A stretch of 42,594 nt of DNA. It comes from Thermoplasmata archaeon (lineage in GTDB: Archaea > Thermoplasmatota > Thermoplasmata > Lutacidiplasmatales > UBA184). Under the pieces are notes generated by a model. The model had not been told where the DNA came from. It was given only the letters and a program-made list of their open reading frames with translations, and made no database searches. Of the stretch, positions 1,991 through 41,700 are shown in pieces. The position numbers and the translations under genes were made by a program. Numbering within the stretch: the stretch's first letter is position 1; every line of letters starts with the position of its first letter. The stretch covers positions 1 to 42,594 of the forward strand of contig JASHRJ010000037.1 in NCBI GenBank assembly GCA_030037395.1, read 5' to 3'.

Positions 1991-2000
1991 TCTTATACGC
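1991..2000 (+). promoter_or_regulatory. TATA-like box of the initiator tRNA-Met gene
   Basis: tcttatacgc about 25-30 nt upstream of the tRNA 5' end. Confidence 0.5.
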
Positions 2001-2022: not shown

Positions 2023-2125
2023 AGCGGGGTAGGGTAGTCAGGAAAGCGGCCGGCGGTGCCGGCCGTCCTGAAATCCCGACGGGCTCATAACCCGTAGATC
2101 CATGGTTCAAATCCATGCCCCGCTA
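2023..2125 (+). tRNA. Initiator tRNA-Met(CAT) with predicted D-loop intron (intron ~2045-2072)
   Basis: Acceptor AGCGGGG/CCCCGCT (A1:U72), anticodon arm ACGGG-CTCATAA-CCCGT (three consecutive G:C pairs, initiator signature), T-arm CATGG-TTCAAAT-CCATG. A 28-nt insertion interrupts the D-loop: CAGG-AAA-GCGGCCGGC-GGT-GCCGGCCGT-CCTG-AAA. Confidence 0.9.
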
Positions 2126-41599: not shown

Positions 41600-41700
41600 G
41601 CAGGTGTAATCTAGTGGTAGGATGTCAGCCCTCCAAGCTGACCGCCCGGGTTCGAATCGGCGGGTCGGCTCGGCCCGCCGCGGGACTCCCGGCACCTGCA
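41600..41700 (+). tRNA. tRNA-Gly(TCC) with predicted T-loop intron (intron ~41657-41686)
   Basis: Acceptor GCAGGTG/CACCTGC + A73; anticodon arm TCAGC-CCTCCAA-GCTGA. T-arm interrupted: CCGGG-TTCG-AAT-CGGCGGG-TCGGCTCGG-CCCGCCG-CGGG-ACT-CCCGG; removing 30 nt gives CCGGG-TTCGAAT-CCCGG. Confidence 0.9.

Follow-up and report, generated by a model that had tools for sequence, protein, structure and literature searches.

The window, as we call the whole 42,594-nt stretch of DNA that was analyzed, contains the only initiator tRNA-Met gene of a Thermoplasmata archaeon. With a probability of about 0.9, this gene carries a genuine BHB-type intron at a non-canonical D-loop site, gained once and removed by a loop-less alpha'2 EndA. 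The intron type is known, and the novelty lies in the combination of phylum, initiator position, clade-wide fixation and loop-less enzyme. The source genome is an 83.8% complete MAG of 1.58 Mb in 140 contigs. When GTDB-representative genomes were scanned for enlarged initiator D-loops, this intron turned up in dozens of records bearing the title Thermoplasmata archaeon, Candidatus Lutacidiplasma silvani and UBA184 among them. In the NCBI taxonomy, Lutacidiplasma belongs to the order Lutacidiplasmatales of the phylum Thermoplasmatota. The window is assigned to this group on the strength of near-identical orthologs and of kinship in the genome search. The Lutacidiplasmatales were described from acidic soils, and introns are not mentioned in the main text of that description (PMC9287336).

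A preliminary description of the window had reported a 28-nt insert in the D-loop, with the segments CAGG, AAA, CCTG and AAA. On direct reading, its letters and coordinates were found to be exact to the base. The gene and its intron are composed as follows.

1993..1997, + strand: promoter element TTATA, resembling a TATA box, some 30 nt before the first base of the tRNA (direct reading)
2023-2125, + strand: initiator tRNA-Met, whole gene (direct reading)
2023..2044, + strand: exon 1, with the acceptor 5' strand, the D-stem 5' strand and the D-loop up to position 20a
2039..2042, + strand: central helix 5' strand CAGG, containing the conserved G18 G19 (from the fold; invariant in orthologs)
2043-2045, + strand: 5' bulge AAA (direct reading)
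2045..2072, + strand: D-loop intron of 28 nt at about position 20a/21, made up of a 9-bp hairpin and the CCTG strand
2046-2066, + strand: intron hairpin GCGGCCGGC-GGT-GCCGGCCGT (direct reading)
2067..2070, + strand: central helix 3' strand CCTG
2071-2073, + strand: 3' bulge AAA (direct reading)
2073..2125, + strand: exon 2, with the D-stem 3' strand, the anticodon arm (CAU), the T-arm, the acceptor 3' strand and A73

The marks of an initiator were read directly from the exons: an A1-U72 pair, the CAU anticodon and three G-C pairs next to the anticodon loop (GGG/CCC stem end). A separate elongator Met gene is present elsewhere in the genome. Transcription of the initiator gene is supported by the conservation of the TATA-like box, which begins between -29 and -31 in almost every ortholog tested. 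When the 28 nt (2045-2072) were taken out, the product AGCGGGGTAGGGTAGTCAGGAAATCCCGACGGGCTCATAACCC...CCCCGCTA was called tRNA-Met(CAT) by ARAGORN; the unspliced sequence yielded 0 genes. The restored tRNA is canonical, with a D-loop of the length seen in sister genera. A whole-genome search matched RF00005 to the exon 2 region (2052-2125, 34.5 bits), and within the window tRNA-Thr and tRNA-Ser are the only tRNAs reported by ARAGORN or by Rfam at the gathering score. A small ORF at 1797-1941, between two tRNAs, encodes a peptide (MAQAIDPVCGMKVDPERAAATGSYGGAPVYFCSVACRRKYEATHRPE) that looks YHS-domain-like.

Two 3-nt bulges, AAA and AAA, flank the 4-bp exon-intron helix CAGG/CCUG. The bulges, central helix and hairpin of the BHB layout were as first described, but the layout is not a strict hBHBh'. 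The 3' bulge is followed by a U.U and then mostly by non-pairs, with no exon helix until the D-stem. On its 3' side the motif is a relaxed bulge-helix-loop (BHL/hBH), a recognised variant. Because both bulges read AAA, the exact cut within them is ambiguous from sequence, and the product is identical either way. The predicted fold of 2015-2135 has an energy of -58.2 kcal/mol vs -44.2 +- 4.1 in shuffles (z = -3.4), with 1/200 shuffles folding as well.

The intron was found in 95 loci with 67 distinct hairpins; in some cases two loci stand for one and the same genome, reached via two collections. AAA forms the 5' bulge at 92 of these loci and the 3' bulge at 91, and the intron strand of the central helix reads CCTG in 93/95 and ACTG in 2/95. 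For the 45 distinct hairpins of 21 nt, 93% of the pair cells were paired; when the pairing register was slid by 1-3 columns, only 26-65% were. Double changes occupied 31 cells vs 9.5 +- 2.6 after shuffling, and 0/500 shuffles reached 31, a count that is not a probability because the shuffles keep relatedness in place.

The hairpin is stable in the predicted fold, as it would be if the insert were never spliced and extended the D-loop of the mature tRNA. Such an extension needs neither 3-nt bulges nor a 4-bp helix, yet both are kept across about 70 distinct versions of the intron. It would also sequester G18/G19, with loss of the elbow, and it sits poorly with the many other BHB introns of the genome and with intron-less sisters that have exactly the spliced length. 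Retention of the insert is thus considered very unlikely, and these patterns indicate that the initiator intron is almost certainly spliced in the cell.

The conserved motif, the covariation and the intron-less sisters of spliced length strongly support the earlier proposal of an intron in the sole initiator gene. An uninterrupted tRNA-iMet, the search for which had been recommended, was found neither in the source genome nor in a congener reported 100% complete. The incompleteness of the source MAG (just 83.8% complete) leaves some room for an intact initiator gene elsewhere, in which case the interrupted copy would be a pseudogene. This is made extremely improbable by the congener, whose sole initiator has the intron, by exons that do not differ within the genus although the hairpin does, and by genome surveys in which no intron-less archaeal initiator was found within the intron-carrying genera. 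With a spliced intron in the only initiator gene, all translation initiation would, by inference, depend on splicing of the initiator tRNA.

The enlarged D-loop pattern occurred in 66 of the 400 genomes surveyed across the class, the genomes behind this survey being MAGs. The window's genus accounts for 55, the genera g25 and g29 of its family for 10 and another family for 1. Four genera of the same family (g24, g26, g27 and g28) are intron-less and have GGGTAGTCAGGTCATCCC (or GGCCATCCC, GGTTATCCC), identical in length to the spliced GGGTAGTCAGGAAATCCC. The initiator is also without an intron in sister families f2 and f3 of the order. In an EndA tree, built from one gene and 27 rows, the intron carriers form one clade (support 100/98). 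Given this clade and the intron-less sister genera, a single gain is the simplest history, placed in the common ancestor of the three carrier genera, which belong to one Lutacidiplasmatales-group family.

Separate initiator D-loop introns lie at or near the same place in genomes G053 (locus L033) and G049 (also L111) and in a Lokiarchaeota contig (L108). Their hosts are other Thermoplasmata families and an Asgard archaeon; the introns are apparently independent, and their position suggests that G18-G19 is a recurrent intron landing site. Another initiator D-loop intron candidate, L157, was grouped with them. Bacterial matches from the scan for D-loop-interrupted initiators (Peptoniphilus, Marinobacter, Actinotalea and others) were rejected as upstream sequence beside ordinary fMet genes. 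Contig JASIAO010000353.1 (L082), filed as an Acidobacteriaceae MAG, has an archaeal intron-bearing initiator gene identical to that of the Thermoplasmata MAG L125, and is probably mis-binned.

The source genome contains at least 12 non-canonical tRNA introns, three in D-loops and nine in T-loops (59/60). The second interrupted tRNA of the window is of the latter kind.

41600..41700, + strand: tRNA-Gly(UCC); ARAGORN calls tRNA-Gly(tcc) once the intron is removed
41657..41686, + strand: T-loop intron (59/60) of tRNA-Gly(UCC), 30 nt, with a UUCG/CGGG helix, AAU and ACU bulges and the T-stem adjoining

The motif of this intron is a strict BHB, and tRNA-Gly(UCC) at 41600-41700 is listed neither by ARAGORN nor by Rfam at the gathering score. 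A T-loop parser identified further introns at 59/60 in Ser-GCT, Ser-GGA, Ala-GGC, Glu-CTC, Lys-TTT, Gln-CTG and His-GTG, and that of Arg-TCG (L249) was found by inspection. In the T-loop introns the exon contributes UUCA or UUCG (54-57) to the central helix; UUCG forms four pairs and UUCA leaves an A.G mismatch beside the bulge. As the T-stem directly adjoins, these motifs are strict or nearly strict BHBs. The parser was used instead of a brute-force BHB scan via ARAGORN, which returned about 12,000 candidates with no useful ranking. Its long-intron matches without an anticodon were set aside as chance, except tRNA-Gly(UCC), which was checked by hand. Placement of the introns at 58/59 with 4-nt bulges was dropped, since 59/60 with 3-nt bulges suits every case.

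Further D-loop introns were parsed by eye. Lys-TTT (L032, G000:C129:2279-2381) has two introns, one in the T-loop and one in the D-loop (CCGG/CCGG). Arg-GCG (L026, L226) has a D-loop intron before G18 with the helix GUAG/CUAU, and Arg-GCG of family f3 (L244) also has one there, with GUAG/CUAC. The Arg-GCG D-loop motif is relaxed, like that of the initiator, and the intron looks older than the initiator intron because it is common to families. T-loop introns are also present in G061, which is without the initiator intron, and in two tRNAs of family f2; this distribution indicates that the T-loop set is the older one. The same intron pattern was observed in congener G029, reported 100% complete. 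Anticodon-loop introns occur in Tyr, elongator Met and Leu-TAA of the source genome. A Trp-like tRNA with a long anticodon-region intron was also noted, as a 167-nt match in G061 (L313) and a partial match in G029 (L234). This intron resembles the C/D-box-bearing tRNA-Trp introns of other archaea.

Typing of the splicing endonuclease, also recommended in the preliminary description, gave one EndA gene of the alpha'2 type. In the source genome PF01974 matches two units within one open frame, and the protein has the two fused units in one polypeptide, with Tyr/His/Lys in the C-terminal unit. PF01974 matched in each of the 27 near-complete, low-contamination genomes among the 61 searched, usually with exactly two units, and no matches beyond the two repeats of one gene were found in near-complete relatives. 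An RtcB gene is present. The Tyr/His/Lys triad and the equivalents of A. fulgidus R280/K287 are retained in the family EndA. As judged from the alignment, none of the family EndA aligned has, in its catalytic repeat, the Lys-bearing CSL/ASL-type loop before the LSLIE strand to which broad specificity is credited. In carriers and non-carriers of the intron alike, what is missing there is the A. pernix alpha insert around VEKPRG; at this site the catalytic repeat is as long as in A. fulgidus, and only a short loop is present in the N-terminal repeat. We take this insert to be the crenarchaea-specific loop, partly after the loop description in PMC6379350. EndA architecture is the same in carriers and non-carriers. 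The earlier hint at a Thermoproteales-type lineage was wrong, the host being a member of the Thermoplasmatota with an alpha'2 EndA and not an alpha2-beta2 enzyme, which makes the case more unusual than had been supposed.

EndA cleavage of the bulges and joining of the exons by RtcB are the established archaeal pathway. In the pre-tRNA, C-A-G18-G19 of exon 1 is predicted to pair with CCUG at the intron end, exposing the two AAA bulges. Each of these would be cleaved after its second nucleotide by the one EndA, of homodimer type (alpha'2), and RtcB would presumably ligate the exons to a normal initiator tRNA. With the intron in place, its pairing would tie up G18/G19 (in the T-loop cases, U54-C56) and keep the D-loop/T-loop elbow from forming. 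Splicing should therefore precede folding, elbow-dependent end maturation and use in initiation. The initiator intron was probably added to T-loop (59/60) and D-loop introns that were already there, and the whole set would be processed by an EndA with neither the crenarchaeal nor the ARMAN loop.

The enzyme step is the weakest link in this explanation, because the motif is relaxed on its 3' side and structural studies limit loop-less alpha'2 enzymes to strict motifs. Loop-less alpha'2 EndA has been described as narrow (PMC6379350) and as possibly limited to the canonical BHB (PMC12397907). With both the initiator and the Arg-GCG D-loop motifs relaxed, the intron might be removed by something other than, or besides, this enzyme, such as an undetected second subunit or a helper protein. 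However, only the two repeats of one gene were found with PF01974 in near-complete relatives, carriers and non-carriers share the EndA architecture, and homodimers have been stated, to the contrary, to cleave BHL-like motifs (PMC8707768). Involvement of another factor is thus rated unlikely, and cleavage by the loop-less alpha'2 EndA is preferred.

In the prevailing model, non-canonical tRNA introns go with EndA types that have a specificity loop. According to reviews, the introns of euryarchaeal alpha4/alpha2 organisms are essentially all canonical (PMC4090602). Korarchaeum is given as the only alpha2 case with non-canonical introns, and its enzyme is loop-bearing (PMC4033280); three thermophilic euryarchaeal methanogens also have non-canonical introns (Chan 2011, PMC3218864). 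In this literature picture, drawn from reviews and a 2025 structure paper, published statements conflict on the cutting of relaxed motifs by homodimeric EndA. A report of non-canonical tRNA introns in the Thermoplasmatota was not found in a search of freely available papers, so that priority is not certain.

On balance, the present data favor the view that a loop-less alpha'2 EndA naturally processes relaxed BHL D-loop introns, including one that would stand behind all translation initiation. If so, a broad substrate range would have evolved in the Thermoplasmatota without a CSL/ASL-type loop, and the proposed rule that the specificity loop and non-canonical introns co-evolve would be broken. 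The clade offers natural substrates, in the form of conserved, essential and relaxed introns with one loop-less enzyme and sister genera without the initiator intron, so that the question of homodimer specificity is directly testable. Dense non-canonical tRNA introns now extend to a lineage of soil archaea in which ARAGORN and the Rfam tRNA model miss or under-score the interrupted tRNAs. With one gain, and with both the earlier and the later state at hand, the initiator intron also illustrates how an intron enters an essential gene.

The closest likeness is to the Thermoproteales/Crenarchaeota, where short BHB-type introns also lie in the D- and T-loops, near 20/21 and 59/60, and a tRNA gene sometimes has two introns, as in the window's genome (Yoshihisa 2014, PMC4090602; Chan 2011, PMC3218864). 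Those organisms have an (alpha beta)2 EndA with the crenarchaea-specific loop, whereas the present host belongs to the Thermoplasmatota and has a loop-less alpha'2 enzyme. Many non-canonical tRNA introns outside the Crenarchaeota have recently been described for soil genomes of the Asgard Atabeyarchaeia/Freyarchaeia as well (PMC11291895); these belong to another phylum and are far denser in introns, with 92-95% of their tRNA genes interrupted. Korarchaeum cryptofilum likewise combines a homodimer-type EndA with non-canonical introns (PMC4033280), but its EndA is reported with a crenarchaeal-type loop and the EndA here is without one. The split initiator of Nanoarchaeum equitans and the permuted initiator of Thermofilum pendens are also essential single-copy genes that need EndA-type processing (PMC3218864). 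Their breaks are at 37/38 and 59/60, whereas here the gene is contiguous and the D-loop intron is fixed clade-wide.
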